A DNA stretch of 41,551 nucleotides from IMG/VR virus record IMGVR_UViG_3300021420_000075, positions 1 to 41,551 of that record; one strand, 5' to 3'. The position numbers and the translations under genes were made by a program. A model generated the notes under the pieces. That model saw only the letters and a program-made list of their open reading frames with translations. It did not search any database and was not told the DNA's origin. This DNA is from a virus. Below, piece by piece: positions 16,584 through 36,709 of this stretch. Within the stretch, counting starts at the first letter, position 1. Each line of letters starts with the position of its first letter.

Positions 16584-16869
16584 TGACGGCGTCATGCGCT
16601 TCCAACGCGGGACGTTGGAGCGGGCGAAAGACAGCCTCATCTTCTGCATCGAGTGGTACAAACGCATCCACCAATACGCGGAGTTGGAGGAGACCGATCA
16701 GATCCTGCACACCCCCCGCAACACGTTGCTCGTCACCAGCCTCGAAACTTTGCAGCGCGAGCTGAAAGTTCTCACGCGCCTAGTTGACATTACGTTAATC
16801 TCCGTCAAGAATCAGTTAAATGCTAGACCACAAAATCCCCCCCGCGCGCGCCCATCTCCAAAGACTTGA
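16555..16869 (+). CDS. Hypothetical helical protein
   Basis: 104 residues. Mostly helical (MDRQLRNILDDGVMRFQRGT, SLIFCIEWYKRIHQYAELEE, NTLLVTSLETLQRELKVLTRLVDITLISVKNQL) and ends in a Pro/Arg-rich tail. ATG 16555 is chosen over the in-frame GTG 16540. It overlaps the end of the previous gene by 29 bases and the aminotransferase-like gene by 50 bases. Not recognised; the helical pattern fits a small coiled-coil or dimer. Confidence 0.55.
   Translation: MDRQLRNILDDGVMRFQRGTLERAKDSLIFCIEWYKRIHQYAELEETDQILHTPRNTLLVTSLETLQRELKVLTRLVDITLISVKNQLNARPQNPPRARPSPKT
16784..16812 (+). promoter_or_regulatory. Candidate promoter for the DegT-like gene, leaderless
   Basis: TTGACA (16784-16789), 17-bp spacer, AAGAAT (16807-16812). 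The predicted start falls at or next to ATG 16820. The -10 box is weak, so this is less certain than the other promoters. Confidence 0.4.
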
Positions 16870-17845
16870 AACCAAATTCGAAGACCTGACGGAGAAACAT
16901 GCGGTCGTCGGGTCAACGGCGACCGCCACCTACTTATTCGCGCTCCGGGCATGGATCAACGAGAACAAGATCCCGGTCGGCGCCGAGGTCATCGTCAGCG
17001 GGCTCTGCCCCTCGACTATCATCCTGAATCTAATGGACTTAGAGCTGGTGCCGGTGTTCGCGGACATCGACGCCGACACCCTCCAGGTTACGGCGAAGAC
17101 CGTTGCCGCCGCGAAGACCGACAAGACCGTGGCTGTGTTCATCGAGCACTTCGGCGGCTACCCCGCGCCCATCGACGAAATCCATGGCTGGTGCAAGGCC
17201 CGCCAGTTCACGTTGATGGATGATGCCAGCCAGTGCCTGCCGACCGAATACAAGCACTGGGAGTGCGGCGACTGGCCCAGTGACATGACCTTCTTCAACT
17301 TCAGCGGTAACCGGTTGTTCACGGGCTGCGACGGCGGCGTTGTCTGCCTCGAATCCGATATCCTGGCGCGCGCCTGCGCCACCCAGCGCCGTCAAGACGT
17401 ATGGGCTGATGAGGACGGTGAGGTCCGGGGCTACAAAGCCTTCCTGACCGAGCCCAAGGCCCTACAGATCATGAACGCGCTCGGGGGCATCGTCGCCGCC
17501 TACAACAAGCGCTCTATGATTTGGGGCATGTACCAGCGCGCGTTCGACCTCGACGGCGTCTACCTGCCGTGGGACGACAGCGCCGACGTCAAGCAGTCGT
17601 GTTCCCACTACGCGTTGCGGCTGGAGAGCGCCCGCGACTACCTGGTTCAGGGGCTGGCGAAGCGCGGTATCGCCGTTCCGCGACCGATCAAGCCCGTGTA
17701 CAAGATGGACATTTGGAAGCTGCCGGTGCCGCAATTACCGGTGCTTGAGGAGTTCATTGTGAACGAGGTCTCGCTTCCCATCAGCCACGACTTGAACTTG
17801 ATTCAGGTCCAGCAGATCATAGAGGCTGTCAAGAGAATCGCATGA
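16820..17845 (+). CDS. DegT/DnrJ/EryC1-type aminotransferase homologue lacking the catalytic lysine
   Basis: 341 residues. HAVVGSTATATYLFALRAW, EVIVSGLCPSTIILNLMDL, LVPVFADIDADTLQV and FTLMDDASQCLPTEYK follow the DegT/DnrJ/EryC1/StrS aminotransferase order, with D135 as the PLP ring-binding Asp. At the Schiff-base site, family members read as in SFYPGKNLGALGDGG; here it is NFSGNRLFTGCDGG, with Asn164 (codon AAC) in place of Lys. A normal transaminase reaction is therefore not expected. ColD-type relatives carry a His there, so altered activity is known in the family. The C-terminal part is ordinary. No sugar-pathway genes are beside it. Confidence 0.72.
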   Translation: MLDHKIPPARAHLQRLETKFEDLTEKHAVVGSTATATYLFALRAWINENKIPVGAEVIVSGLCPSTIILNLMDLELVPVFADIDADTLQVTAKTVAAAKTDKTVAVFIEHFGGYPAPIDEIHGWCKARQFTLMDDASQCLPTEYKHWECGDWPSDMTFFNFSGNRLFTGCDGGVVCLESDILARACATQRRQDVWADEDGEVRGYKAFLTEPKALQIMNALGGIVAAYNKRSMIWGMYQRAFDLDGVYLPWDDSADVKQSCSHYALRLESARDYLVQGLAKRGIAVPRPIKPVYKMDIWKLPVPQLPVLEEFIVNEVSLPISHDLNLIQVQQIIEAVKRIA

Positions 17846-18021: not shown

Positions 18022-18578
18022 AGAAAATGGAGGTCGTAGTCGCGAATCACACCATTGACTGGGTGAGCATCCGCTTGGATTTTTTGAACGAGAACTTGAT
18101 GGCCGGACGCCCGGATGCGTTTACGCTGAAGGACGCGGCAATTAAGCACGGCGTGGTCTACGGCAGCCTCCGCAACAAAGCCGCTGAAGACGGGTGGCAC
18201 GAAGACCTCAAGCGCTTGCTCACCGACCTCAAGCTGGAGAGTGACGCGGGCGTGATGAGCGTGCAGCTCGAATCCGAGGTCGAGGTCAGGGTGCGGCAAG
18301 CGAATTTCGCGCGCACGTGCCAGAACAAGGCCATGGCGAAACTCGCGGCCATCGACCCCCTGAAGCTGACGACACAGGAAGCGATCATGCTCTGGCGTTG
18401 GGGCATGCAAGAGGAACGCGCGGCCCTGGGTCTGGACGACAACTTCCAGGCACCGCCTCCGGGCATCGCCAAGTCCAACCAAACGCGAGAGGCCGTGCGC
18501 ATTGCGCTTGAGGCCGTGGGTAAGCTACGCGACAGAATGAAATTAATTGCACCAGTCAATGCAACCCCCGCTGGCTGA
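18009..18578 (+). CDS. Putative terminase small subunit
   Basis: 189 residues. Residues about 30-65 (PDAFTLKDAAIKHGVVYGSLRNKAAEDGWHED) read as an HTH of the type found in small terminases, which recognise phage DNA and start packaging. A helical central domain follows (VRVRQANFARTCQNKAMAKLAAIDP). Position immediately upstream of the large subunit supports the call. ATG 18009 is selected; a TTG 17958 would add 17 residues. The last 20 bases overlap the large-subunit gene and contain a dyad repeat. Confidence 0.65.
   Translation: MPGLKKMEVVVANHTIDWVSIRLDFLNENLMAGRPDAFTLKDAAIKHGVVYGSLRNKAAEDGWHEDLKRLLTDLKLESDAGVMSVQLESEVEVRVRQANFARTCQNKAMAKLAAIDPLKLTTQEAIMLWRWGMQEERAALGLDDNFQAPPPGIAKSNQTREAVRIALEAVGKLRDRMKLIAPVNATPAG
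18539..18551. repeat. AT-rich dyad repeat before the large terminase gene
   Basis: GAAATTAATTGCA, within the last codons of the small subunit (KLIAP); a TTG start candidate for the large subunit lies inside it at 18547. Confidence 0.6.
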
Positions 18579-20529
18579 TGATGTCCTCCTCGCGGAGCTG
18601 CGCCCGGTAATCATCAACGCCCTGGGCGTGGTTGAGGGCAGCACGCTCCTCAACGCGGTTTCCGCGATTCCCGATGCCGACGAGCGCGCGGCGCTGCTGC
18701 GCGACATCATGGCCGACATCGAGACGGCGCTTGACGGTCAAGAGACGCAGGCGCTGGCGACGCGCGATGACTACCGCGAGCGCCCGGTCGGCGTCAAAGA
18801 GTTCGTGTGCAGCCCCTACTACCTAAACAAGGCCGATGAGATTTACCCTATCGTCCTCGATGAACTGGAGGAGATGAACAGTGGCAAGTACGTCGAAATC
18901 GTGCTCACCGGGGGCATCGGCTCAGGCAAAACTACGAGCGCCCTCTACACCAATGCCTACCAGCTCTATCTGCTGTCGTGTTTGTACGAGCCCCATAAAC
19001 TGTACGGATTGGACCCATCGTCCGAAATTCTGCTTATCTTTCAGTCAATCACCGCGACCCTGGCCAAGGGCGTAGATTACAAGCGCTTCAGGTCGATGAT
19101 CGAGCTGAGCCCGTATTTCCAGCACAAATTCCAGTTCGACAAGAAGATCGAATCGCGGCTTGTGTTCCCGCATCGCATCGAGGTCGCGCCGTTGTCGGGC
19201 AACGACACCGCAGCCATCGGCCAAAACGTGATGGGAGGGCTGATCGACGAATTGAACTACATGGCCATCGTCGAGAAGTCGGCTAAAAACAAGAACATCG
19301 ACAAAGGTGAGTACGATCAGGCCGTTGCCATCTACAACTCGATCAGCCGTCGCCGCAAATCGCGATTCATGAAGCAGGGCAAACTTCCCGGCATCTTGTG
19401 CCTGGTGTCGTCGAAGAAGTACCCGGGCCAGTTCACCGACATCAAGGAACAAGAGAGCCTCGACGAGATGCGCAGGACCGGTAAGACTTCGATCTACGTC
19501 TACGACAAGCGCATATGGGAGATCGCGCCGCCGGGGCGATTCAGCGGCAAATGGTTCCGCATCTTCATCGGCGACGAATCCCGCAAGCCCCGCATTCTCG
19601 ATGACGATGACCTCGGCGATATCACGGATGAGGTCGGGGTCGATGGGCGCAGCCTCGTCATGCTCATCCCCGAGGAGTATCGGCCGGACTTCGAGCGCGA
19701 CATCATGGGGTCGCTGCGAGATATCGCCGGTGTCTCGACGCTGGCCCTGTTCCCGTTCTTCACCAATCGCGAGAACGTGGCGGAGATGTTCGGGCACCAG
19801 CCGTCGATCCTCAGCGATACCGAGACCGACTTCCACTCGAAGCCGCTGAAGATCCTGCCGTCGAAAATCTTTCAGCCGCAGCACCCGCGCTGGGTTCACA
19901 TCGACTTGTCGATCAACAAAGACAGCACCGGTATCACCATGGGCTGTGTCCCCGGGTTCTGCGCGATCAACAGGGGCAACGACGACTTCGAGACCATGCC
20001 CCAGATTTACATCGACTTCCAGCTCCGGGTCACGGCCCCACCAGGTGGCGAGATCCTGTACTACAAAATCCGGTCGTTGATCTACGCGTTGCGTGAACGC
20101 GGGATCAATATCAAGTGGATTAGTTTGGATAGTTTCCAGAGCGTTGATATGCAGCAGATTTTGCGGCAACAGGGGTTCACGACCGGCGATTTGTCGATGG
20201 ACAAGACCACGCTGCCTTATGAAGTCTTGAAGACCGCGTGCTACGACGGGCGCGTGTCGGCACCAACGCATAAACACTGCGAAAAAGAGCTGATTGGCCT
20301 CGAAATGAATCCGAAGACCGTGAAGATCGACCACTCGCCGACCGGCTCCAAGGACGTGGCCGATTCATTGGCGGGGGTAGTCTATGGCTTGACGATGAGA
20401 CGCGAAATTTGGTCGGAATTCGATGTTCCCGTTGTGCGGATGCCAGGTTCAATCCAACAGATCATGGACCGGGAACGCGAACGCATGAAGTCGGAGGGCG
20501 ACTACGCGGGGTTGTTGCGCAAGCGCTAG
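18559..20529 (+). CDS. Terminase large subunit
   Basis: 656 residues. The ATPase part has Walker A GGIGSGKTT (K124) and Walker B GGLIDELN (D230, E231). The C-terminal nuclease has HIDLSINKDSTG (D449), WISLDSFQSVDMQQIL and DVADSLAG, the acidic residues of RNase H-like terminase nucleases. It packages DNA into the procapsid and cuts concatemers. ATG 18559 is preferred; TTG 18547 in the dyad repeat is an alternative. The size is that of a full terminase and no intein or intron interrupts it. The next genes downstream are not the portal, which lies 19 kb away. Confidence 0.9.
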   Translation: MQPPLADDVLLAELRPVIINALGVVEGSTLLNAVSAIPDADERAALLRDIMADIETALDGQETQALATRDDYRERPVGVKEFVCSPYYLNKADEIYPIVLDELEEMNSGKYVEIVLTGGIGSGKTTSALYTNAYQLYLLSCLYEPHKLYGLDPSSEILLIFQSITATLAKGVDYKRFRSMIELSPYFQHKFQFDKKIESRLVFPHRIEVAPLSGNDTAAIGQNVMGGLIDELNYMAIVEKSAKNKNIDKGEYDQAVAIYNSISRRRKSRFMKQGKLPGILCLVSSKKYPGQFTDIKEQESLDEMRRTGKTSIYVYDKRIWEIAPPGRFSGKWFRIFIGDESRKPRILDDDDLGDITDEVGVDGRSLVMLIPEEYRPDFERDIMGSLRDIAGVSTLALFPFFTNRENVAEMFGHQPSILSDTETDFHSKPLKILPSKIFQPQHPRWVHIDLSINKDSTGITMGCVPGFCAINRGNDDFETMPQIYIDFQLRVTAPPGGEILYYKIRSLIYALRERGINIKWISLDSFQSVDMQQILRQQGFTTGDLSMDKTTLPYEVLKTACYDGRVSAPTHKHCEKELIGLEMNPKTVKIDHSPTGSKDVADSLAGVVYGLTMRREIWSEFDVPVVRMPGSIQQIMDRERERMKSEGDYAGLLRKR

Positions 20530-20822: not shown

Positions 20823-22718
20823 ATGAGTCAGAAAACCTTTTCCTTGATGACGAACCAGACGCTGAAGGGCGCAGCCCTCCTGCAACTATTGCAGAACGCG
20901 GCTGGCGCGGATGACACCGCTTCAATCGTCTACGGCGATTCCGCCGCCTTCACCGCTGGCGTCGGCAACGCGGTCACCGCGAAATCCGGTATGACCGTGG
21001 GCACGGCTTCGACCGTGGGCACCGTCCTCACGCTTTCCGCAGTCACCGGTGTCGTGTATCCGGGCGACGTCGTCAGCGACGGCAGCTCGAACACCGCGAC
21101 GATCATCGGCCCCGTGGTTCCCGGTACCTCCGGTGCCGGTGCCTACAACATCACCGCGCCGCAGGCGGCGTGGACCGCCGGTGGCGTAGCCGTCACCAGC
21201 ACGTCACAGACCCTCGACGTCACGGCAGTCACCGCCGCCGACGCGCCGTTGCTCGTGGCCCCGGGCCAGTCGATCATCGGCAACCTCCAGGTCACGGGTT
21301 CGTGGATCGCGGGCAACGTCGTGAGTCAGTTGACTCCGAATTCCAGCGGCTTCACCGGTGAAACTCTGGGCGGCGTCGGTCGCTACGTGTTGAGCACGAG
21401 CCAGCAGGCGGCGAGTTCGACGAACGACATCAAGACCTTCACCATGCACGTGTCCGCGACCAGCGCGGGCGTTATCGGTGGCGGCAACGCGATCACCGCT
21501 CCCGGTGGCGCGACTTCCCTCACCGTCGGCGCGCAGCTTCCGCTGGCTGGCGGCGAAACCGAAGGCGGCATCGGCCGCTATTACGTCACGGGCGCGGCGC
21601 CGGTGTACGTGGCCTCGGTCAACACCTTCACCACGACCAGCGCAACGGCGATGGCCGATGGCGACTTCATCGGCTTGATGGACGGATCGTGGACGGGTCG
21701 GCCCAAGTACGAGTTCAACACCGACACCTTCACCAAGTACGGGCGCAAGTTCATCGTCAAGTTCATGACCACGACCTCGCTGACCCTCGGCGATTCGAGT
21801 CTGAACAACACGACTCTGGGCAACGCCAACAACGTCGATACCTACGGCATCGTGCGTCAGGTCACGATCACCGGTCACGGCATGGTGCCGGGCCAGGTCT
21901 TCATGGTCGCCACCGAGGCTTTCCTGGTGTTGACGGTGGATGACGCCAACCACATCGACGTGTATCGCGGTTACGCGGGCACGACTGCCGCAGCTCATGC
22001 GAGCGGTGCAGCGGTTCTCGCCCCGGCTTCGTGGACGGGTGTGAACATCGGCTACGACATCGTGATCCCGGTGACGGCGCTCGCGATTGCGACCTCCGGC
22101 CCCGAATTTGCGACGGCCATGAACGCGCTCGACGGCTGGAACGCCAAGTGGTTCGGCAGCTCGGGCCAAGGCGTCAAGCAGACCCTCAACTCGAAGAAGC
22201 TGAACTTCCTCTGGGAATACGACAGCACGTACGACGACCGCATCCTGTTCTACAGGCCGAGCGTCAGCGGTAACCTGGGTCCGAGCGCAGGCGGCGCACC
22301 CCCGGTGTTCCCGAGCACCACGACTGTCGGCCCCAACAGCTTGGCCGGGGGCTCCACTCCCACCGGGACCACGGTCTACATCCTCGCCAGCTTCGTCAAC
22401 GGCGCGTGCCCGACGAATCCGACGCTTGGCGTTCAGCCCGGCGAAGTCGGACGCAGCGCGGTTCTGCGCACGGTCAATGCCGTCGAGGCAGCGGCAGCCG
22501 GTTCAGGCGGAGCCTATGGCCGCATGGACTTCGCGTTCCCGTATCCGGTCAAGGGCTACGAAGTCCTGGCATTCGTCGTGAGCACCGGTGCAGCGGTGGC
22601 GGCAGCCGCCAACTACGTGGTCACGTTCTCAGCGGACTTCCGCCGGGCGTCGGTCGCCGGTGTCAGCGGCAGCGCGTTGTCGGTTTCCGACCGCGTCGGC
22701 CTCGACGTCGTGTTCTAA
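20823..22718 (+). CDS. Large Ala/Thr/Gly-rich structural protein
   Basis: 631 residues, highly enriched in Ala, Thr, Gly and Val, poor in Lys, without Cys-based enzymatic motifs. The N-terminal segment (MSQKTFSLMTNQTLKGAALLQLL) is different from the remaining beta-rich part, which contains repeated segments such as TVGTVLTLSAVTGVVYPGDVV and SGAGAYNITAPQAAW. This pattern matches phage surface, decoration or fibre proteins and resembles the smaller virion-like protein at 3640. It has its own promoter region, a good ribosome site (ATGGAGTCTCACAA before ATG 20823) and a strong terminator, so it is likely abundant. Exact role is unknown; a major capsid role cannot be excluded. Confidence 0.6.
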   Translation: MSQKTFSLMTNQTLKGAALLQLLQNAAGADDTASIVYGDSAAFTAGVGNAVTAKSGMTVGTASTVGTVLTLSAVTGVVYPGDVVSDGSSNTATIIGPVVPGTSGAGAYNITAPQAAWTAGGVAVTSTSQTLDVTAVTAADAPLLVAPGQSIIGNLQVTGSWIAGNVVSQLTPNSSGFTGETLGGVGRYVLSTSQQAASSTNDIKTFTMHVSATSAGVIGGGNAITAPGGATSLTVGAQLPLAGGETEGGIGRYYVTGAAPVYVASVNTFTTTSATAMADGDFIGLMDGSWTGRPKYEFNTDTFTKYGRKFIVKFMTTTSLTLGDSSLNNTTLGNANNVDTYGIVRQVTITGHGMVPGQVFMVATEAFLVLTVDDANHIDVYRGYAGTTAAAHASGAAVLAPASWTGVNIGYDIVIPVTALAIATSGPEFATAMNALDGWNAKWFGSSGQGVKQTLNSKKLNFLWEYDSTYDDRILFYRPSVSGNLGPSAGGAPPVFPSTTTVGPNSLAGGSTPTGTTVYILASFVNGACPTNPTLGVQPGEVGRSAVLRTVNAVEAAAAGSGGAYGRMDFAFPYPVKGYEVLAFVVSTGAAVAAAANYVVTFSADFRRASVAGVSGSALSVSDRVGLDVVF

Positions 22719-24778: not shown

Positions 24779-25334
24779 CCTCCTCTACAATGCGCTCGTG
24801 GTGATGGTCGAGGACTTCCCCGCCGAAGTCCCGCCAGGCCCCAACGTCGTCCTCGACGGCGTGGACGTCAGCGCCTTCGACCCCTGGGACTACCAGGTGC
24901 TGAGTGCGAGCACCGCCGTGTTCACCGGCATCATGACCGGGCAATGGTTCCAGTTGCCAGTGGGGTTCGCCGTCAACCAGAATCGACACCGCTTCGAGTA
25001 CAACGTCTACGGTCCCTCGTTCTTGGTCGAGGAATTCGAGGGCCTGATCTTGACCGACAAGCGCGTGGTCGATGTCGGGGAGATCGACTGCGATGACTAC
25101 GGGGTATTTGCCGAGCACCTAGACGGGTGCTGGCTCGGAACACTGCTTGACATCAGCACACTCCATGGTATGGTCGCACGTCAGGCAGACACCATGAAGT
25201 CACTGAAGTCGTACGTGAAAAACGAACACTACCGCTCTGATGCCAAATTGCTCACCGACATGATCGGTGCGACCAACGCCATGATGACGACCGGTGTCGA
25301 GATCATCAACAAACTCACCGAGGAACTGAATTAA
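24678..25334 (+). CDS. Hypothetical protein
   Basis: 218 residues from ATG 24678 (GTG 24675 and ATG 24730 are alternatives). N-terminus basic (STVKRFQCKRRG). The middle is beta-rich with acidic patches (NVVLDGVDVSAFDPWDYQVL, GVFAEHLDGCWLGTLL); the end is helical (LLTDMIGATNAMMTTGVEIINKL). The overlap with the 24530 gene is large, so the later ATG 24730 may be the true start. It ends in the taATG of the dNMP kinase gene, so both are probably co-translated. Function unknown. Confidence 0.55.
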   Translation: MSTVKRFQCKRRGVAQGMSVAQDLRQLLRARTADLLYNALVVMVEDFPAEVPPGPNVVLDGVDVSAFDPWDYQVLSASTAVFTGIMTGQWFQLPVGFAVNQNRHRFEYNVYGPSFLVEEFEGLILTDKRVVDVGEIDCDDYGVFAEHLDGCWLGTLLDISTLHGMVARQADTMKSLKSYVKNEHYRSDAKLLTDMIGATNAMMTTGVEIINKLTEELN

Positions 25335-25924
25335 TGCAAGTAATTGCACTCACGGGCTTGCCGCGCTCCGGCAAGGACACGGTCGCCGCATACCTGAACG
25401 CCAAGTACCAGTGGACGCCGTCGGCCTTCGCCGGACCCCTGAAGTACGCGGCCTCGATCATGCTCAACCTCACGCCGCAACAGGTGAACGGATTAGGTTT
25501 CGACCGCGAGGCCGTGATGCCGGAGTGGGGATTCTCGTGCCGTCACTTCCTCCAGTACCTGGGGACGGAGGTCGCGCGCAACTTCGACCCTGACTTCTGG
25601 GTCAAGCGTTTCGCCATGGAGATCGCCAACGGCAAGCGCATGCAGACCCAGGGCCAGCTCAACCCCAACATCAACTTCGACAAACTCGTGATCACCGATT
25701 GCCGCTTCGAGAACGAAGCCAAGTGGACGCGGGAGCAGGGTGGTGTGGTCATCGAGATCCGCAGACCCGGGATCGTGGCCAATGACCACGTCAGCAACAA
25801 AGGCGTTGCCAACCCCGAATTCGTGATCGACAACAACGGCGTCGGCGATGGCTGGGACGGAGTGCTTCACGCCCAAGTTGACATAATCATTGCGAAGCTG
25901 GAAGGCGGAGCCGCCCCCAACTAG
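25334..25924 (+). CDS. Deoxynucleoside monophosphate kinase
   Basis: 196 residues. The P-loop ALTGLPRSGKDT and the segments FAGPLKYAASIML, YLGTEVARNFDPDFWVKRF and VITDCRFENEAKW match the phage dNMP kinase family represented by T4 gene 1 and T5 dNMP kinase. The enzyme phosphorylates dNMPs for phage DNA synthesis. Start ATG 25334 lies exactly on a dyad repeat copy (ATGCAAGTAATTGCAC) and overlaps the upstream stop. A repeated promoter follows the stop directly. Confidence 0.82.
   Translation: MQVIALTGLPRSGKDTVAAYLNAKYQWTPSAFAGPLKYAASIMLNLTPQQVNGLGFDREAVMPEWGFSCRHFLQYLGTEVARNFDPDFWVKRFAMEIANGKRMQTQGQLNPNINFDKLVITDCRFENEAKWTREQGGVVIEIRRPGIVANDHVSNKGVANPEFVIDNNGVGDGWDGVLHAQVDIIIAKLEGGAAPN
25335..25349. 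repeat. AT-rich dyad repeat at start of dNMP kinase gene
   Basis: TGCAAGTAATTGCAC, covering the start codon of the kinase gene and overlapping the previous stop. It encodes QVIA. Confidence 0.6.
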
Positions 25925-25926
25925 AT

Positions 25927-25955
25927 TTGACAAACGCTAACGGTACGCGTAATCT
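25927..25955 (+). promoter_or_regulatory. Repeated phage promoter, copy 7
   Basis: -35 TTGACA (25927-25932), AACGCTAA, 17-bp spacing, -10 TAATCT (25950-25955). It drives the dikinase-like gene. The leader carries GCATGGAGAT and the ATG is 33 bases past the -10 box, as in copies at 23032 and 31267. Confidence 0.87.
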
Positions 25956-25987: not shown

Positions 25988-28045
25988 ATGAGTCAGTTCT
26001 GGAAGTTCAGCAAAGACGCTACGACGGCGGGCGCTGCTGAAAAATCCTACCTCGGCGGCAAGGGCGTTGGCCTCGTCGAGATGGCGCGGGCCGGGCTCCC
26101 AGTCCCCCCGGGCGTGATCATTCCCACGGTTGTTTGTCCCCAGGTCTTCAGCGATAAATCTGGCGCGGTCCTCAAGGCCACGGCCAAGGAAGCGATGACG
26201 CTGGCCGTCGAAGTCGCGGGGCCGGGGTCCTTGTTTTCAGTGCGCTCGGGCGCGGCGGTGTCGATGCCCGGGATGATGGACACAATCTTGAACGTCGGCA
26301 TCCACAAAGACAACGTCGAGGGCTACGCCAAGACCATGGGCAACAAGGCGGCGCTCGACTGCTACCGCAGACTGATCGAGATGTACGGCAAGACCGTTGC
26401 CGGGATCGAAGGCGAGAAGTTCGCGGCGGTCATGAAGAAGGTCAAGGGCGAGTTGACCGTCCCCAAACTCGAAAAGCTGGTGGCGGCGAACCTCGCGGTC
26501 TACGAGAAGCACGCGGGCGAGTTTCCCGCGACCCTCGAAGCCCAGCTCGAAGGCGCGATAGGCGCGGTCTTCAAATCGTGGAATTCAGAGCGGGCCATCG
26601 CCTACCGCATCGAGCACAAAATTCCCCACGACATGTACACGGCGTGCATCGTCCAGCGCATGGTGTTCGGCAACTTGAACGCCAACAGTTGCTCGGGCGT
26701 GCTCTTTAGCCGCGACCCGACTAGCGGCGAAAAGCAGATGTACGGCGACTTCTTGAGCGGTGGCCAGGGCGAGGAAGTGGTGAGCGGCAGCGCCAACACC
26801 AAGAAGATCGCGGAGCTGGCGGCTTGGAATTCAAAGGTCAGCGAGGAGCTGTTCACATACGTCCAGTGCCTAGAAGCCCAATACCGGGACATGGTCGATA
26901 CCGAGTTCACGGTGGAGAACGGCACCGTCTACATGCTTCAGGTTCGCACGGGCAAGCGCGAGGCGCTCGCCGCGTTCCGAATCGCCTACGACATGGTCAA
27001 GGAAAGCGTGATCACGAAGGCCGAAGCCCTGAAGCGGGTGTCGGCGGCACAGTACGCGATCCTGAGTCGGCCCCAGATCGCGGCGAACTGCGGCGTCAAG
27101 CCCCAGATCACGGGAGTCGGCGCGAGCAAGGGCGTGGCCACGGGCCGGGCTTGGTTCAGCTCGAAAGCCGCTCAGCTCAACAAAGGCGGGATCTTGGTCA
27201 GCCACGAGACCACGCCCGATGACTTCGCGGGAATGGCGGCGAGTGTCGGCATCCTCACTAAGACCGGGGGCAGCACCAGCCACGCAGCGGTAGTCGCGAG
27301 GGCGATGAACCGGGCGTGCGTCGTCGGTTGCAACGGCGCGCTCGACTTCAGCGGTGCCTACGTCATCTTCAAAAAGGGCCAGCCCGATGCCTACCAGATC
27401 GTGGAGGGCGACGTCATCACAATCGACGGCAGCACCGGCAACGTCTACGTCGGCGCGGTGCCGATGGTCGGCGGTAAGGTCCCGGAATTCGTGAACGAGA
27501 TGATTGAGTGGGGCGCGCAGGGCGTGGCCCTGCAATACGATGCCGCCAAAGACACGTTGCCGACGACCGGAGAACTTTACGTCAGCATGGTCAACGTCAA
27601 GACTGTGGCCGAGGTCAGCGAGGTCTTCATGAGCCTGAGTGATGATTGCCACGGTATCCTCAGCTTCATCGACGCCAGCAAGTTCGACGACAGCGAGTTC
27701 TTGAACGCGCTCTGTCTCGACGCCCAGGTGATGTCGGCGACCGATGAGCAGATCGACGGCCTCATCAACGTCGGCGCCTCGGAGAAGGCAAAGAAGTGGA
27801 CGGTGATAGGTAGCCATGTCCAAGCCCACAATTTCAAGGTCCACAAAAAGCTGACGACACTCGGCGATTTGTTCAATGCCAGCGGCTACTACGAGATCGA
27901 CAGCAACCTCGAAAAGTTGTTGGAGATGCAGGGCACGACGGTGGCGGCGACGCTCGATATACTAAAAGACGCGGGCGCGTGGTTGACCCCCATCACAAAA
28001 CCAGTAACTCGCGAACAGATGGCGTTCCAGGTGTTCGGCAAATGA
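25988..28045 (+). CDS. Pyruvate phosphate dikinase-like protein lacking the PEP/pyruvate domain
   Basis: 685 residues. The ATP-grasp part follows PPDK closely: YLGGKGVGLVEMARAGLPVPPG, SVRSGAAVSMPGMMDTILN, VFKSWNSERAIAYR and VFGNLNANSCSGVLFSRDP. The swivelling phosphohistidine domain has TGGSTSHAAVVARAM with H432 kept. Past about residue 500, PPDK should continue into a PEP/pyruvate TIM barrel of about 340 residues; here only about 180 residues remain, with no match I can see to its catalytic motifs. Total length is about 190 residues short of PPDK. It could make a phosphohistidine from ATP and Pi but needs another acceptor. It has its own promoter. Confidence 0.8.
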   Translation: MSQFWKFSKDATTAGAAEKSYLGGKGVGLVEMARAGLPVPPGVIIPTVVCPQVFSDKSGAVLKATAKEAMTLAVEVAGPGSLFSVRSGAAVSMPGMMDTILNVGIHKDNVEGYAKTMGNKAALDCYRRLIEMYGKTVAGIEGEKFAAVMKKVKGELTVPKLEKLVAANLAVYEKHAGEFPATLEAQLEGAIGAVFKSWNSERAIAYRIEHKIPHDMYTACIVQRMVFGNLNANSCSGVLFSRDPTSGEKQMYGDFLSGGQGEEVVSGSANTKKIAELAAWNSKVSEELFTYVQCLEAQYRDMVDTEFTVENGTVYMLQVRTGKREALAAFRIAYDMVKESVITKAEALKRVSAAQYAILSRPQIAANCGVKPQITGVGASKGVATGRAWFSSKAAQLNKGGILVSHETTPDDFAGMAASVGILTKTGGSTSHAAVVARAMNRACVVGCNGALDFSGAYVIFKKGQPDAYQIVEGDVITIDGSTGNVYVGAVPMVGGKVPEFVNEMIEWGAQGVALQYDAAKDTLPTTGELYVSMVNVKTVAEVSEVFMSLSDDCHGILSFIDASKFDDSEFLNALCLDAQVMSATDEQIDGLINVGASEKAKKWTVIGSHVQAHNFKVHKKLTTLGDLFNASGYYEIDSNLEKLLEMQGTTVAATLDILKDAGAWLTPITKPVTREQMAFQVFGK

Positions 28046-28075: not shown

Positions 28076-28507
28076 TTGCTGGTAACGCGGTTGAGCGACA
28101 AACTACCCTGCCCCAAATGTCGAGGCGCAACGTGGCTGGAAAAGTTCGACGAGGACATAGTCCAGCGTTGCCTCTGTGGTTTGCACAGGTACATCCAGCG
28201 CCGCATAGATGGAGTCACCATATACTCGACCGCCGTGAAGCAGTCGGAGGTCGTCTTGCCTCAGCGCGGGACGAAAATCTACAGGTGCTTCGCCAGCATT
28301 GGCAAGAAGCACCCGCGCGTTATCATGACCGCCGACGTCGCGCGGGACACGCAGTTGAACAACAAGGAAACCGCCGCGCTACTGATCGCGTTGCAGGCGC
28401 GGGGACTAATTCAGCGAGCAAGCGAGAGACGCGGAGTCGCTGGTGGGTCCGAGTGGCGCTTGACGACTATCGCGGAATACTACTTCACGCGGCCAGTCCG
28501 CAACTAG
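28076..28507 (+). CDS. Zinc-finger and winged-helix-like protein
   Basis: 143 residues from TTG 28076, or 138 from TTG 28091 (MSDKLPCPKC). Cys pairs CPKC and CLCG form a probable zinc finger. The C-terminal part (TADVARDTQLNNKETAALLIALQARGLIQRA, then SEWRLT) reads as a winged helix, so a nucleic-acid-binding regulator is likely. The alternative frame opened by ATG 28042, overlapping the dikinase stop by ATGA, is Arg-rich and looks non-coding. No ATG start is available, so the start is uncertain. It lies between the dikinase-like and CsrA-like genes in the same unit. Confidence 0.6.
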   Translation: MLVTRLSDKLPCPKCRGATWLEKFDEDIVQRCLCGLHRYIQRRIDGVTIYSTAVKQSEVVLPQRGTKIYRCFASIGKKHPRVIMTADVARDTQLNNKETAALLIALQARGLIQRASERRGVAGGSEWRLTTIAEYYFTRPVRN

Positions 28508-28516
28508 GTGTGAATT

Positions 28517-28795
28517 ATGGCTCTTAAAATCTGCCGCCAAGTCGGCCAACAATTCAAGGTCGGGAAAGCGCTGCTGACCCTGGCCGAAGTCAAAGGCCCA
28601 GAGTGCTTTGTTCTCGAACGTCCGGGCGCGCTCAAACAGCGCTGGACTATCGACACCAAGCCCTTCGAGATACTACCGGGGGTCAGAATCAGCGCGGGCA
28701 AGAGCGACCGCCCCTATCGCGCGTGGATCACCATCGATGCGCCCAAGGACGTGCGTATCGAGCGCGTGCCCGTGGAGACCGACGAGTTCAGTTGA
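28517..28795 (+). CDS. CsrA-like RNA-binding protein with internal insertion
   Basis: 92 residues, longer than the usual 60-65 of CsrA. The beginning (KICRQVGQQFKVGKALLTLAEVKG, residues 4-27) and the segment WITIDAPKDVRIERVPVE (residues 70-87) match the two ends of CsrA, including V9-G10, K26-G27, the APK/D segment and the RNA-contacting Arg (R83). About 40 residues (28-67) are extra between them. Family knowledge: CsrA binds GGA-containing hairpins in leaders and blocks or alters translation. It could act on host or phage mRNAs; several leaders here carry GGAGAT. Start ATG 28517; a repeated promoter begins two bases after the stop. Confidence 0.55.
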   Translation: MALKICRQVGQQFKVGKALLTLAEVKGPECFVLERPGALKQRWTIDTKPFEILPGVRISAGKSDRPYRAWITIDAPKDVRIERVPVETDEFS

Positions 28796-28842: not shown

Positions 28843-29394
28843 GTGGACATGATTTGCGAGCAGTCAAGGGCTCAGTTGGGCGTCGGGATACCGGCGGGTG
28901 CAAAGGGCAAGTTTCCGTTGCGGCTGGGTCAGATCAAGCAGGATATCGTTGGCGGTCCCTACAGCTATAAACCGCCGGAGTTTTACGGCATCAAGATGGC
29001 CGAGGAAATCAATCGTGACTGTGTCATCTCGATCCCGACGCGCGACTTCAACGTACCCGATACTGGTCGTCTTCTTGCTGGGTTGTATGCAGGCATTAGC
29101 TTGGCTCAGCAAGGATGTCCGTTATGGGTGGGCTGCATGGGCGGCATCGGTCGTACTGGTCTGTATTTTGGGGCACTTGCTAAGGTCATGGCCCGGTACC
29201 AAAAGCTGACCAAGCACCGGGTGACCATCGACCCCATCGAGTACACGCGCGCGAATTACCTGGCCCACGCCATCGAGACCCCAGAGCAGCGGCACTGGGT
29301 GCGGATGCTGGACGTGGATGCGGTCGCGGAATGGGCAGTTTACATAAGCGGGTATCGGGCACCCTGGTACAAGCGATTGTTTGACAAACGCTAG
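28843..29394 (+). CDS. Tyrosine/dual-specificity phosphatase-like protein with GCX5R site
   Basis: 183 residues. The signature is WVGCMGGIGRTGLY: C98 and R104 of CX5R are kept, but the usual His before Cys is Gly97. VISIPTRDFNVPDTGRLLAGL resembles the region holding the general acid Asp. The second phosphatase-like protein in the window has the same Gly. Family knowledge: these enzymes remove phosphate from Tyr/Ser/Thr or other substrates; without the His the Cys is less acidic, so activity needs testing. GTG 28843 follows AGGAGG. The C-terminus FDKR comes from the next promoter. Alternative: an inactive phosphate-binding protein. Confidence 0.6.
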   Translation: MDMICEQSRAQLGVGIPAGAKGKFPLRLGQIKQDIVGGPYSYKPPEFYGIKMAEEINRDCVISIPTRDFNVPDTGRLLAGLYAGISLAQQGCPLWVGCMGGIGRTGLYFGALAKVMARYQKLTKHRVTIDPIEYTRANYLAHAIETPEQRHWVRMLDVDAVAEWAVYISGYRAPWYKRLFDKR

Positions 29395-29438: not shown

Positions 29439-30458
29439 ATGGAAATCTGTTCACTGCATGAGTACCGGAAACGGCCCCAAACCGTTCCCCTCAGCTTCAA
29501 GGGCGTGACCGTTGCCCAGCTCGTGCAATCAATTGCAAAATGGCAGAGCGAGCAAGTTCACCAGTACGCGGTCCCCGAAGACCAAGCGCTTCAGTTCTAC
29601 GTCGCGAATGCCGCATACGCGCAGCTCGCGCAGAAGGTCGAAGCCCATCAACCCCTGAACCAAGTGCAGCAATGGCTGATGACTCACTACTACGAAGTCA
29701 TGAAAAACATCGGCCTGCGCGCGTTCTTCTACACATTCTTGATTTGCACGCGCGAGGCTCGGCACGGGGGCTTCACGCAGTTGAAACCGAAGGTCGCGCA
29801 CGTCTACGGCGACATCGGCTTTTTCAAGAATCTGACGGACGACGCCAGCACCATAATCAGCCAGATCCAAGGCAGTGACTGGCAGACCAAGTACACGCTC
29901 GACAAATTCACCGACCTCCTGGTTCTGGTCTTCGAGCAAGCGACGTTCAGCGGCGGCTACGGCGGCAAGAACTGGGCGGCGGTCGCGCGCCCGCTCCGCG
30001 ACTTCTGCCACGGCTTGACGACCATGGAAATGTTTTTGGACACGGTGTGGACGCTGGCCCACAACAACGGCGCGATCTTCAACAAAGCCATGATGTACAA
30101 GAAGCAGAACGACGAGGCCCTACTCAAGATCCTCGACGTCCAGCGCGCTGGGCAGATCCCGAGCCTGATTTGGTGGAACGAATCGCAATTCGTCAAGGAC
30201 CATCACCGGGAGGTCGTCAACGAGGCCCGCAAGGACATGCCGGACTTCGGCATCAACAAAGTCGATTGGCAGGCGGTGGTTGACGCTGGTGCCCTCGGCA
30301 GCTACCCAGGATTCAAGAAGACAGTGGACAAAGCAGCGGCAGCCGCTGCCGCCGCGAAAGCTGCGGAAAAGGCGGCATTCATCGCCGCCAACAAAGCCAA
30401 GATGTTCCAAGTCACCCCGACCGAGCACGTGACCAAGATCACGCGCGCTGAGCTATGA
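29439..30458 (+). CDS. Hypothetical protein with Ala-rich C-terminus
   Basis: 339 residues, not recognised. Helical N-terminal part (TVAQLVQSIAKWQSEQVHQYA), then Trp/Tyr-rich segments and a phrase VWTLAHNNGAIFNKAMMYKK that I have the impression of seeing in other phage hypothetical proteins. An Ala-run (AAAAAAAAKAAEKAAF) near residue 310 forms a flexible helix. It is driven by copy 9 of the repeated promoter and overlaps the second phosphatase-like gene by ATGA, so the two may work together. A dyad repeat copy lies inside at 29524. Function unknown. Confidence 0.65.
   Translation: MEICSLHEYRKRPQTVPLSFKGVTVAQLVQSIAKWQSEQVHQYAVPEDQALQFYVANAAYAQLAQKVEAHQPLNQVQQWLMTHYYEVMKNIGLRAFFYTFLICTREARHGGFTQLKPKVAHVYGDIGFFKNLTDDASTIISQIQGSDWQTKYTLDKFTDLLVLVFEQATFSGGYGGKNWAAVARPLRDFCHGLTTMEMFLDTVWTLAHNNGAIFNKAMMYKKQNDEALLKILDVQRAGQIPSLIWWNESQFVKDHHREVVNEARKDMPDFGINKVDWQAVVDAGALGSYPGFKKTVDKAAAAAAAAKAAEKAAFIAANKAKMFQVTPTEHVTKITRAEL
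29524..29537. repeat. AT-rich dyad repeat, near-perfect copy
   Basis: TGCAATCAATTGCA, within the first 33 codons of the 29439 gene. Confidence 0.5.
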
Positions 30459-31255
30459 GGAAAATTTACGTGAGCCGCAAGAAGAAACGAGATGATGACT
30501 TCGACAGCGCCTTCGACGGCGAGGTCTTCGGCAAGCAGAAGTCGAGCGGCTTCAGTTACAAAGCCTCGTGCTATGAATCCCACAAGCCCCTGGTCTTTGG
30601 CGCGGGCAAGGTCTACGGGGGCTCGTGCTCACGCCCCACTGTCAAGGACGCCGACATCTACATCGGCCTCGACAGTTGGATGGAGTTTCGACACACCAAG
30701 TATCCGTGGAACCCGCCGGGCACCACCAACGGTCCCATCGAGGTCCTGTTCCAGATCAGTGACGGCAGCGCGCCGAAGCACGCGAACGAATTCGTGAAGA
30801 TGATTGACTGGCTGGTGCTGCATATCGCCGCTGGCCTCACGGTGCACGTCGGGTGCATCGGCGGTCACGGGAGGACTGGGATGGTGCTCGCGGCGCTCGT
30901 GAAGAAGATCAAGGGCACGGAGGACGCGATCACGTGGTTGCGCGAGAACTACTGCAAGAAGGCGGTGGAGACCGAGACCCAGGTCAAGTTCCTGAACAAG
31001 TACTTCGGCATCAAGGTGGTTCAGGGCTCAAAGGAAGGCCATGGCACGTTCGCGGGCTACGGCACACGCGGAACCTACACAGGCATCCAAGACGAGTATT
31101 TAAACGGCATCAGCCAGCGCCCTGGCACCGTAGTCCACCCGATGACGGGGTTGCCCATCTACCGTGGCGAGGACGGCACCAAGAGCCTGCCAGCGCCAAA
31201 GCGTCAGATCGTGGCCAGCGCCAAGGGCATACCAGGTAAGCACAGCATATGGTAA
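30455..31255 (+). CDS. Tyrosine phosphatase-like protein, second copy, with GCX5R site
   Basis: 266 residues. Signature VHVGCIGGHGRTGMVLAAL: C134 and R140 are kept and Gly133 replaces His, as in the first copy. DADIYIGLDSWMEFRH and WLVLHIAAGLTVHV match the preceding strand and helix of the fold. The N-terminus is basic (RKKKRDDD), and a C-terminal tail of about 65 residues is Gly-rich (GHGTFAGYGTRGTYTG). Paralogue of the 28843 protein, 1.1 kb apart. Start ATG 30455 overlaps the upstream stop. Catalytic activity is unproven. Confidence 0.6.
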   Translation: MRKIYVSRKKKRDDDFDSAFDGEVFGKQKSSGFSYKASCYESHKPLVFGAGKVYGGSCSRPTVKDADIYIGLDSWMEFRHTKYPWNPPGTTNGPIEVLFQISDGSAPKHANEFVKMIDWLVLHIAAGLTVHVGCIGGHGRTGMVLAALVKKIKGTEDAITWLRENYCKKAVETETQVKFLNKYFGIKVVQGSKEGHGTFAGYGTRGTYTGIQDEYLNGISQRPGTVVHPMTGLPIYRGEDGTKSLPAPKRQIVASAKGIPGKHSIW

Positions 31256-31327: not shown

Positions 31328-32227
31328 ATGGCAGTGATACTTGAAATTGATGCTTCGCTTCAGGAGCTGATGTCGAAGTTGGGGCTCGATGCCGGGCTAA
31401 TTTCCGATGCCACGGCCAATGGTCTAGAAGTCAAGTACACGCTCAAGGGCGTGACCATCTTCCAGAACGCGATTCACGCCAGCGCCGACGCCCCCATCAA
31501 AATGGGCGTGCTCCAGTCGATTCTCAACGGCAAGCTGCCGGGCGGCGCTGCCAAGATCCTGTTGGCGTCGCAGTTGCAGAAGGCAGTTAAGCTGGTGCTC
31601 GCGGAGTGCGGAGTCGCGACCAAAGGTCCGCCGTTTCTCGCGGGCCAGGAAAAGCAGGTATTCAGTGGCTCGGTGCCGGATAAAGCCAAGGCCACGACCT
31701 CAGCCCAGCTCGAAGCGATCTTCGGCGGCAAGAAGGGGGCTTCAGGGACCCCCAAGGCCCAGGAGCCTAAGAACGTCGCTGCGCCGATCCCCGGGGTCGA
31801 GGCCACGGCCAAAATCGGTGTGAGCCCCCTGACTCAAGCCTTTAAGGCGGCAGCGGATATCCTCGATGCCGTCGGGCCGAAGTGCAAACTCCTCGACGCC
31901 ACCAAGCTGTTTCAGCCCGTGCAAGGTTCAGATCCCAACTCCACGTACTTCGTGGTCGCGCTCAGTCAGAGTCTGAAGATCGCGGCGCGCATGAAGACCA
32001 ACCAGAAAATCTCGATACGGGTTGAAGGTGAACACCTTGATTTGTTTCAGGGCCAACTTGAGTTGATGGGGTTGAGCGGGAGCACAGACAGCCACTATTC
32101 GGTGCACTTGAGCTGCGATAGCTCGGACCTCGCGCGCAAATCCGTCGGCGCCATTATCTGCGGCATCGGCTGCGATTTCGATGCAGTTGCCACGAACCTG
32201 CACAAGATTTGGGGCAAGGGCGCGTGA
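31328..32227 (+). CDS. Hypothetical protein
   Basis: 299 residues, not recognised. Two similar-size halves are joined by a Lys/Ala/Pro-rich linker (about residues 105-160). The N-terminal half has EVKYTLKGVTIFQNAIHAS and PGGAAKILLASQLQKAVKLVLAECG; the C-terminal half has LDAVGPKCKLLDATKLFQPV, TYFVVALSQSLKIAARMK and KISIRVEGEHLDLF. GC-rich, no enzyme motif. Driven by copy 10 of the repeated promoter and coupled by GTGA to the next gene. Confidence 0.62.
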   Translation: MAVILEIDASLQELMSKLGLDAGLISDATANGLEVKYTLKGVTIFQNAIHASADAPIKMGVLQSILNGKLPGGAAKILLASQLQKAVKLVLAECGVATKGPPFLAGQEKQVFSGSVPDKAKATTSAQLEAIFGGKKGASGTPKAQEPKNVAAPIPGVEATAKIGVSPLTQAFKAAADILDAVGPKCKLLDATKLFQPVQGSDPNSTYFVVALSQSLKIAARMKTNQKISIRVEGEHLDLFQGQLELMGLSGSTDSHYSVHLSCDSSDLARKSVGAIICGIGCDFDAVATNLHKIWGKGA

Positions 32228-33008: not shown

Positions 33009-33020
33009 AGTTAATTGCAA
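33006..33020. repeat. AT-rich dyad repeat at polymerase gene junction
   Basis: TGAAGTTAATTGCAA. TGA ends the upstream gene and TTG 33015 opens the polymerase frame. Same arrangement as at 15852. Confidence 0.65.
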
Positions 33021-35459
33021 AATGCCCATGTGGTGCCCAGCGTGCTGGAAGCACATAAGCGAGTGCCAGTGTCCAGCACCCTAATCATTGCCGCAAGCGC
33101 CAGCAACAAGAAACTGGACCCGGTTCTGCGCCCGCTCCTCGAAGACATTCCCGGTCTCAATACACTCGTCGTCAAACCCGAGGACCTGGGCGATGACCTC
33201 GGCCCCGTCAATTGTCAGTTGCTGATGGGCAGCGGCGCCTTCAACTTGTTGGCGCAAGTCGGGGAGATCAAGCGCAAGCAGAAGATGGGCGCGAGCCGCG
33301 AGAACCTCTACCACCTCTACGGACGCCCGACGCTCGTCACGTACGACGTCGGCATGATCGACTTTATGCCGGAGATGCAGCCCGACATCATCTGGGACGT
33401 GAATCTCGCCATCCGCTACGCGCTCAAGGGCACGCTCAAGCCGATCCCCGGCGACTATCACTGGGTCAACGATTTTTGGGAGGTAGTGGTATGGGCCAAT
33501 AACCTTCCCCAGGACGAGATCACACCGATCACCGTGGACCTGGAGACGCAGGGGCTGGATGAGTTTGCGGCCGACGCCCGCATTCTCACCATTCAAATCA
33601 GCTATCGCCCTGGTCATAGCGTGGTGTATGCGATGCCGCACGACGGCTACATGCCGATCCAAATCTACGACCAGCTCAAGCACCTTTTCAATCTGCCGTG
33701 GCTGAACACGGTCGGCGCGAACCTCAAATACGACATGCGCTGGCTGTGGAAGCAAAGTGACGTGGTGCGCGGCAAATTCGCGCTTGAAAGTAGTGAGCCC
33801 TTGATTATCGTCAACCATCGCTTCGACACCCAACTCGTGGGGGGATTGCTCAATGAGAACCGGTTTAATTCTCTCAAGTCGCACATTAAGGAATACAGCC
33901 CGGAGCTGGGTGGGTACGAAGATCAGTTCGAGGCGGCGCATGATAAAGCGGACATGGCCACGGCACTCGCCAAAGATCCTGACGGCTTTTTACTCTATGC
34001 AGGGGGTGACACGGACGGGTGTCTACGGATATACCCTCGACTCAAAAAAGCTATTTCCAAAGACATGGCGCTCGCGCGATTCTATGGGCGACTTCTACAC
34101 CCAGCGTCTCTTGCATTCCGTGTCCTTGAGTCTCGGGGTATTTGCATTGACCGACCACGTTACCTGGAGCTGCTGAGCCTGGCGCAGGCGGAGCGCGACA
34201 CCCTCCACACCCAGTGCTTTTCGATGATGCCCAACCGCATCAAATACAAGTACGCGGACAATTTGAAGCTGACACGCGATGTCATCATCACCGACTTCCT
34301 TTTTAGTCCATCTGGGCTTAACATAAAGCCGTTGATGTACACAGACGGGAGCGAGAAACGTGTCGCCGAAGGTAAGTCTGCGCAGCCTAGCACCGCATGG
34401 GACCATCTCAAGCAGTTCATTGACCACCCGGAAGCGGGGCCGTTCGTCAAAGCCCTCAAGCAATACAACGCGACGTGCAAAACCGTCGATACCTATATTG
34501 TTGGCTTCCTTGCGCACCTGCGATCAGACGGCAGGTTTCATCCTAGCTACATACTTGCAAAAGGCGGTCAAGCCGGAGATGAAGATGAGGGCGGCGGAAC
34601 CAATACCGGCCGCAGCTCGTGCAAAGACCCGGCTTACCAAACATGGCCGAAGCGTACCGCGTGGGCCAAACGGCTTCGCACAGTCGTCGTATGCCCCCCA
34701 GGGTACGTCATCGCCAAAGGGGACATGAGCCAGGGCGAACTACGGCTGATGGCGGACGCCAGTAATTGCGCGAACATGATCGCGGCCTACAAAAACAACA
34801 TGGACCTACACGCGGTCACCGGAGCCTACTTCAAGAACATGACTGTGGAGCAGCTCCTCAAACTCAGCGACGACGAAATCGAATTGATACGCTACGGCGC
34901 GAAAGCCGGGAACTTCGGCCTTATCTACAGGATATCCCCAGCCGGGTATCAGGCATTCGCCGAAAGCAGCTATGGCCAAAAGATGACCCTGCAACAGGCC
35001 GAAGCCAACCATAAAGCCTTTTTCAAACTCTACCCGGAGATCGCGACGTACCATGACACCCAAGTGACAAACGCTAAGTGTTATGGTTATGTACGTAACC
35101 CACTCGGTAGGGTCAGGCATCTGCCGCTGATCAACAGCCGCGACGGCCAGATCCGTGGCAAGCAAGAGCGTCAGGCCATCAACGCCCCCGGTCAATCGGC
35201 GTTGTTCGACATGATGATGCTGGGGATGGTGGAGGTCACCCGCGCCCGCCCCGACATCTGGATGTTCGGCAACACCCACGACAGCCTTGAGATGTACTTG
35301 AAGGAAGACACGTGGGAAGCCGATCTAAGTCAAATCAAGGGGATCTTCGAGAACTTGCCATTGACACAGTTTGGCTGGAAGCCTAAAGTTCCGTTCGTCA
35401 TGGACTTTGAAGTCAGTAAGACCAACCTCGGCGAGACCAAGAAGGTCAAGATCAAGTGA
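33015..35459 (+). CDS. DNA polymerase, PolA family with 3'-5' exonuclease
   Basis: 814 residues from TTG 33015; GTG 33069 is an alternative start. Exonuclease motifs: VDLETQGLDEF (D175, E177), NLKYDMRWLW and AGGDTDGCL. Polymerase motif A is GDMSQGELRLMAD (D570), motif B RYGAKAGNFGLIY (R626, K630) and motif C THDSLEMY (D756). There is no 5'-3' exonuclease domain. The O-helix reads KAGNFGLIYRIS, with Arg where E. coli Pol I has Gly. It is the replicative polymerase of this phage, far from the helicase-primase genes. An internal copy of the repeated promoter lies at 35064. Confidence 0.9.
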   Translation: MQNAHVVPSVLEAHKRVPVSSTLIIAASASNKKLDPVLRPLLEDIPGLNTLVVKPEDLGDDLGPVNCQLLMGSGAFNLLAQVGEIKRKQKMGASRENLYHLYGRPTLVTYDVGMIDFMPEMQPDIIWDVNLAIRYALKGTLKPIPGDYHWVNDFWEVVVWANNLPQDEITPITVDLETQGLDEFAADARILTIQISYRPGHSVVYAMPHDGYMPIQIYDQLKHLFNLPWLNTVGANLKYDMRWLWKQSDVVRGKFALESSEPLIIVNHRFDTQLVGGLLNENRFNSLKSHIKEYSPELGGYEDQFEAAHDKADMATALAKDPDGFLLYAGGDTDGCLRIYPRLKKAISKDMALARFYGRLLHPASLAFRVLESRGICIDRPRYLELLSLAQAERDTLHTQCFSMMPNRIKYKYADNLKLTRDVIITDFLFSPSGLNIKPLMYTDGSEKRVAEGKSAQPSTAWDHLKQFIDHPEAGPFVKALKQYNATCKTVDTYIVGFLAHLRSDGRFHPSYILAKGGQAGDEDEGGGTNTGRSSCKDPAYQTWPKRTAWAKRLRTVVVCPPGYVIAKGDMSQGELRLMADASNCANMIAAYKNNMDLHAVTGAYFKNMTVEQLLKLSDDEIELIRYGAKAGNFGLIYRISPAGYQAFAESSYGQKMTLQQAEANHKAFFKLYPEIATYHDTQVTNAKCYGYVRNPLGRVRHLPLINSRDGQIRGKQERQAINAPGQSALFDMMMLGMVEVTRARPDIWMFGNTHDSLEMYLKEDTWEADLSQIKGIFENLPLTQFGWKPKVPFVMDFEVSKTNLGETKKVKIK
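33023..33085 (+). CDS. Possible 20-residue Cys4 mini-ORF overlapping polymerase start
   Basis: ATG 33023 opens a 20-codon frame, MPMWCPACWKHISECQCPAP, with four Cys in a knuckle-like arrangement. It lies within the first 25 codons of the polymerase frame. It has no clear Shine-Dalgarno sequence, so it may be chance. Confidence 0.2.
35064..35092 (+). promoter_or_regulatory. Repeated promoter motif inside the polymerase gene
   Basis: GTGACA (35064-35069), AACGCTAA, 17-bp spacing, TTATGT (35087-35092). Thirteen bases match the family exactly. It encodes VTNAKCYGYV within the conserved fingers/palm region of the polymerase. The next gene start is about 360 bases downstream, so it may drive the distal gene cluster. 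Confidence 0.5.
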
Positions 35460-36497: not shown

Positions 36498-36709
36498 TGC
36501 GGCAACCGACTGCCGTCCCCCAAGAATTCTTGCAGTCGCTGGTGGGATTGCCGTATCCCAGCGCCCGCGACCTCTGCAATACCGCGCGCCGCGACCATCG
36601 CATCAAGAAGACCGACGGCAACCCCCATGTCTGTACCGGCGACCTGCGCTTTGATCGCGTGAACCTGGTCATTGTCAAGGGTCGCGTCACCGAAGCGAGT
36701 GCCGGGTAG
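36497..36709 (+). CDS. I78-like peptidase inhibitor fold protein
   Basis: 70 residues from ATG 36497. LQSLVGLPYPSARDL, then TGDLRFDRVNLVIVKGRVTEASAG, resemble the I78 family (elastase inhibitor-like), which has LVG near the start and D.R.DRLN...D..G.I near the end. Family knowledge: some members inhibit serine proteases; many phage relatives have unknown targets. No signal peptide, so it would be cytoplasmic. Assignment is from a small set of residues. Confidence 0.45.
   Translation: MRQPTAVPQEFLQSLVGLPYPSARDLCNTARRDHRIKKTDGNPHVCTGDLRFDRVNLVIVKGRVTEASAG

Follow-up and report, generated by a model that had tools for sequence, protein, structure and literature searches.

Rifampin phosphotransferase (RPH) is often misannotated as pyruvate phosphate dikinase (PPDK) or PEP synthase (PMC4844700). 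In phages, ORF98 of vB_VneS_J26 was presented as a PPDK with a four-strand TIM barrel at residues 524-691; PEP was docked into the barrel of an AlphaFold model, and complete overlap with PPDK covered residues 1-527 (Chen 2025, PMC12038007). The gene family to which ORF98 belongs is already in databases, where members from Vibrio, Stenotrophomonas, Rhizobium, and Rhodobacter phages also carry the label "pyruvate phosphate dikinase". This gene is listed as a PEP/pyruvate enzyme in phage genomes and in at least one paper, and is taken there as evidence of carbon-metabolism rewiring. Here, we analyzed a family member encoded on a viral DNA of 41,551 nucleotides (IMG/VR record IMGVR_UViG_3300021420_000075, positions 1 to 41,551), referred to below as the window. 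The usual pyruvate phosphate dikinase label is probably wrong.

Domain structure and spread of the phage dikinase

Pfam searches, alignment, and AlphaFold2 modeling mark the product of the open reading frame at 25988..28045 (+ strand) as a PPDK-type dikinase of 685 aa without a barrel. An ATP-grasp region with linker (residues about 1-374) is followed by a His swivel domain carrying H432 (residues about 375-489) and a divergent C-terminal alpha/beta domain (residues 490-685). Two Pfam domains are assigned, PPDK_N at E 4.8e-41 and the PEP-utilizers mobile His domain at E 1.4e-23, with none C-terminal to residue 484. By phmmer, residues 15-516 align to PPDK (E about 1e-95). Residue numbers were carried over by alignment with the Clostridium symbiosum enzyme, which puts H432 at the catalytic His455 of PPDK. 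By the same alignment, K25, R86, D304, and E306 correspond to K22, R92, D321, and E323, and Q318, R320, and T430 to Q335, R337, and T453; the functions of these eight PPDK residues are established. All eight phage residues are invariant in 59/59 aligned phage dikinases. Mean pairwise identity among these 59 proteins is 48-49% in the ATP-grasp and His domains versus 17% in the C-terminal part, and the alignment contains no invariant residue after 484. The window dikinase thus has the ATP-grasp core residues and the swivel domain with the catalytic His of a PPDK and lacks its C-terminal PEP/pyruvate-binding (beta/alpha)8 barrel.

Several lines of evidence bear on the missing barrel. PEP-utilizers_C matches 0/59 of the aligned phage dikinases, whereas bacterial controls match it at E 6e-81 and 7e-76, and a profile of the phage C-terminal parts gave no match to a bacterial PPDK barrel profile (hhalign probability, 0.1%). 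The AlphaFold2 model of the window dikinase (mean pLDDT, 90.9; pTM, 0.86; one model was made for each of two proteins) predicts, from about residue 499, a small alpha/beta domain whose strands are short and number about six, too few for a (beta/alpha)8 barrel. The top Foldseek matches of this model are all PPDK, as expected given its other two domains. With 685 versus about 874 aa, the protein is about 190 residues shorter than PPDK, and its C-terminal part counts about 200 residues against about 340 in PPDK. A preliminary description of this DNA had reported strong ATP-grasp and phosphohistidine (H432) motifs, no canonical C-terminal TIM barrel, and about 190 missing residues; all three observations are borne out, and a check for the full PEP barrel and its catalytic residues gave a negative result. 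A frameshift or truncation artefact was rejected, given about 100 distinct relatives that are short and have the same genes downstream. A barrel encoded further downstream was rejected as well, the downstream ORFs of the window being module genes (see below).

The short form is present in about 100 distinct phage relatives and is not a one-off truncation. The window dikinase falls in PHROG phrog_18609 ("kinase"; E 1.6e-134; residues 4-498; profile length, 685), and the match stops at residue 498, the C-terminal part being too divergent to align. Phages of Vibrio, Stenotrophomonas, Rhizobium, and Rhodobacter account for 40 of the 57 phage records that gave a match, and the 13 members inspected over their whole length have 645-734 aa. 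In IMG/VR, an alignment query retrieved 80 dikinase loci, with proteins mostly of about 615-741 aa; a single-protein query gave none. A few proteins of 866-908 aa were also found; apart from L094 (see next), they come from loci without the module and look bacterial. The sole module-linked exception with a retained barrel is an 866-aa protein (L094; PF02896, E 7e-23), in which the segments GLCRTEHMFF, IRxLDPPLHEF, FGTNDLTQ, and SCSPFRVP are replaced. In PPDK, the PEP-site residues lie in these four segments, around R561, R617, N768, and C831. In a quick unrooted tree, one branch with 100% SH-aLRT splits full-length from short dikinases, and L094 forms a long branch; the split is consistent with a single loss of the barrel.

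Taken together, the invariant core, the family-wide loss of the barrel, and the L094 barrel without PEP-site residues support well, at the level of sequence, that the dikinase would not be a pyruvate enzyme and that its phosphate would go elsewhere. If the barrel is missing throughout, the claim of carbon rewiring falls for the whole phage group, and two further labels of the cluster look equally doubtful: "pyruvate decarboxylase" for p25950 and "thymidylate synthase" for PTP.

Gene module and promoters around the dikinase

The dikinase opens a module of genes on the same strand, in the order dikinase, CsrA-like, PTP1, p20946, PTP2, p25950, and DNA polymerase A, which was mapped with profiles built from the neighbor genes of the window. 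The exact order CsrA-like - PTP - p20946 - PTP - p25950 - polA occurs in 55/63 distinct loci that reach the polymerase, the remaining loci missing one or two module genes at the threshold used. In the window, DNA polymerase A (33015..35459, +) forms the 3' end of the module. A small protein of 143 aa with a Cys-rich N-terminus (28076..28507, +) often sits between the dikinase and the CsrA-like gene and adjoins the dikinase in 27 loci. Directly upstream of the dikinase lies a deoxynucleoside monophosphate kinase gene (25334..25924, +), a variable neighbor seen in 10 loci. The preliminary description had included neither the known phage family nor the module with its two cysteine phosphatases, CsrA-like protein, and p20946.

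The CsrA-like protein (28517..28795, +) has 92 aa with an insert. PF02599 (CsrA) matches 20/29 family members (best, 1.9e-7) and the window protein at E 0.087, below the cut-off, making the assignment weak for this protein and good for the family as judged from these matches. PTP1 (28843..29394, +; phrog_17568) and the related PTP2 (30455..31255, +) are cysteine phosphatase-like, with intact CX5R motifs (C98-R104 and C134-R140, respectively) and phosphatase profile matches. For PTP2, 27/27 members match PF22785 at E 0.01 or better, with DSP/PTPase families among the assignments, and its profile matches PTP structures (E 2e-10); the phosphatase match of the window PTP1 alone is weak (E 0.0098), and it shares its phrog with PTP2. 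phrog_17568 is labelled "thymidylate synthase", yet the proteins assigned to it here resemble cysteine phosphatases (CX5R); records such as SIO-2 VPEG_00063 and DLP05_143 appear to have inherited the label. DNA hypermodification, which a "thymidylate synthase" neighbor would bring to mind, was rejected since the label belongs to a phosphatase family.

p20946 (phrog_20946; 29439..30458, +) is predicted with confidence to be all-alpha (pLDDT, 92.2), and its invariant residues include E106, R108, W179, D201, H208, N209, N215, and K216. Comparison with PDB folds gave no match (best E, 1.4); viral structures returned a few phage models that evidently belong to its own family, and otherwise chance matches; Pfam gave nothing consistent; and no phosphoacceptor fold was recognisable. 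p25950 (phrog_25950; 31328..32227, +) is annotated "pyruvate decarboxylase" in phages J26 and VA-RY-4 (L253 10139-10993; L013 12141-12995). Among 30 members, no consistent Pfam domain and none fitting that label was found, and three match the ribosomal L7/L12 C-terminal domain (best, 7e-7).

The dikinase is in view for 104/113 distinct p20946 proteins (locus counts overlap between scans, and the distinct-protein numbers are the usable ones), and the other nine have under 2 kb of upstream sequence, near a contig end; where upstream sequence suffices, p20946 never occurs without the dikinase. In the phage collection, p20946 is present in 40 records, and the short dikinase in 40 records from the same groups of phages. 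One pattern scan of 84,980 bacterial and archaeal genomes returned six p20946 loci, which are probably prophages because all lie inside the module; no p20946 was found on plasmids. Among the module genes, there were no fusion proteins naming an acceptor. The linkage could also reflect the shared core genome of one phage clade (hitchhiking) rather than a shared pathway. As far as searched, the family-wide loss of the barrel and the conserved module had not been described before: no papers on either were found in the open-access literature, a literature search for the phosphatase/ATP-grasp combination in phages gave nothing, and one for His-domain dikinases turned up the rifampin enzyme alone.

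A sigma-70-like promoter of the TTGACAAACGCTA family (TTGACA-17-TAATCT; 25927..25955, +; 0 in 100 shuffles) ends 32 bases 5' of the dikinase start codon. The 13-mer TTGACAAACGCTA has nine exact copies in the window, all on the + strand and most in promoter position (1844, 7986, 20735, 22788, 23032, 25927, 28797, 29381, and 31267), while shuffled sequence contains a mean of 0.5 copies even with 2 mismatches allowed. By sequence, the family resembles host sigma-70 promoters. Copies are also located upstream of other genes in the replication region, which encodes DnaB, primase, helicase, a UvsX-like recombinase, an exonuclease, and terminase, so the promoter is not specific to the dikinase. Similar sites precede the dikinase in 21/85 relatives, and a TTGACAAAC start recurs ahead of dikinase genes in several relatives. 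The family promoter that had been ascribed to the dikinase in the preliminary description is thus a real sequence, although not one of its own, and the role in host takeover that had been read from it is unsupported.

Elsewhere in the window, an HD_4 (SpoT-like hydrolase) protein (2359-2907) and a MazG pyrophosphohydrolase (36709-37482) are encoded, which could act on alarmones or nucleotides. A DegT/DnrJ-type aminotransferase gene (16820-17842) has recombination genes on one side and the terminase on the other. The terminase-like ORF itself (18547-20526) has diverged strongly (E 7e-11), and the 631-aa ORF after it (20823-22715) has no clear known family.

Proposed fate of the histidine phosphate

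We consider it somewhat probable that this dikinase, derived from PPDK and specific to phages, performs the first half-reaction only and hands its His-phosphate to a non-pyruvate acceptor, probably a module partner, with the phosphatases opposing it. ATP on the ATP-grasp domain would phosphorylate H432 of the swivel domain. AMP would be released, together with PPi if the enzyme uses Pi as PPDK does, and the PEP/pyruvate half-reaction would be lost. The His-phosphate would then pass to a non-pyruvate acceptor, most likely a partner from the same module. Being the partner most tightly linked to the dikinase, p20946 would be the leading candidate, with the fast-evolving C-terminal domain docking or presenting it. 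Both cysteine phosphatases would then strip the phosphate, and the module would cycle between phosphorylation and dephosphorylation in connection with phage DNA replication. From PPDK chemistry, we infer the transfer from ATP to His432; more weakly, we infer the loss of pyruvate activity in vivo and the part of the phosphatases in the cycle. The choice of p20946 as acceptor is tentative. That the module forms an undescribed phage phosphotransfer system, in which the dikinase charges its His from ATP and passes the phosphate to p20946 while the phosphatases and the CsrA-like protein control the cycle during DNA replication, is likewise possible but rather doubtful. The preliminary description had proposed another acceptor, such as a host protein or metabolite, or hydrolysis, and the retained core and lost barrel agree with its non-pyruvate part; the module would favor an acceptor of phage origin over one from the host.

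The main competing explanation gives the C-terminal domain a small-molecule ligand (a nucleotide, sugar, or metabolite) and makes the protein a metabolite dikinase like RPH or glucan water dikinase, with the phosphatases acting later in the same pathway. Glucan water dikinase, a barrel-less relative, phosphorylates glucans. A second barrel-less relative, RPH, phosphorylates a small molecule (PMC4844700), nucleotide genes are found nearby (the dNMP kinase, and dcd or dut in some relatives), and GWD1_pHisD gives a weak match in 4/59 phage dikinases (best, 0.0014). However, a C-terminal part with 17% mean identity and nothing invariant after residue 484 is unlike a conserved catalytic pocket, and gp139 of Bacillus phage G ends right after the His domain, which makes this explanation unlikely in our view. 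Judged on sequence, fast C-terminal evolution together with the short gp139 would argue more for transfer to a separate partner than for a conserved pocket that binds a small molecule; the fast evolution would be equally expected of a docking domain and of a spacer under little constraint.

A working PPDK, acting as an auxiliary metabolic gene for PEP/pyruvate exchange, is what many phage records annotate and what the 2025 AlphaFold model with docked PEP proposes for vB_VneS_J26 (PMC12038007), but PEP-utilizers_C is missing in 59/59, there is no barrel profile match, about 200 residues stand in for about 340, and L094 has lost the PEP-site segments. The published model itself has four barrel strands and overlaps PPDK completely only for residues 1-527 (PMC12038007). 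We therefore hold this reading to be highly improbable. It is also quite improbable that the His-phosphate is simply hydrolysed, or the reaction reversed, so that ATP is consumed or AMP and PPi are handled near DNA synthesis with no specific acceptor. PPDK chemistry is reversible, no acceptor has been identified, and the module ends with DNA polymerase A, but an invariant core with fixed partners in about 100 distinct loci would hardly be expected of a futile ATPase. The favored reading, transfer to a module partner, concerns a well-conserved gene set that includes a protein without a known fold, and its job is testable in cultured Vibrio, Stenotrophomonas, Rhizobium, and Rhodobacter phages.

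Comparison with known dikinases and phage relatives

The window dikinase is a member of phrog_18609, a family that itself carries no assigned reaction. ORF98 of vB_VneS_J26 belongs to the same family and the same module: the J26 annotation shows the module, with p25950 labelled pyruvate decarboxylase. Both carbon-metabolism readings in J26 (PPDK and pyruvate decarboxylase) are doubtful, and the evidence argues against them. Bacillus phage G gp139 (L012 5707-6804) is likewise a phage protein with PPDK_N and His domain and without the barrel. It differs in its length of 365 aa, ending directly after the His domain, and in having E in place of D304. The gp139 gene adjoins an FtsZ-like gene, and no module genes were found within the 12.8 kb examined.

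Glucan water dikinase provides a poor match for the phage protein: of the features that define that enzyme, the GWD-type His domain gave weak matches in 4/59 members, and no carbohydrate-binding module was reported. RPH resembles it in combining ATP-grasp and His swivel domains with, in RPH, a non-PEP acceptor domain. However, the RPH order (ATP-grasp, rifampin-binding domain, and His domain) is not found in the phage dikinase: the His domain is C-terminal in RPH and central in the phage protein, the rifampin-binding domain is absent, and the C-terminal domain is short. With PPDK (e.g., C. symbiosum 1KBL), the phage dikinase has in common the ATP-grasp domain, the His swivel domain, and every core residue checked; it differs in being without the PEP/pyruvate barrel and in having a C-terminal domain of about 200 aa. 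The core of the phage dikinase is closer to PPDK than to RPH. RPH sets a precedent in that these two domains work there with a different acceptor and the protein is mislabelled as PPDK (PMC4844700).
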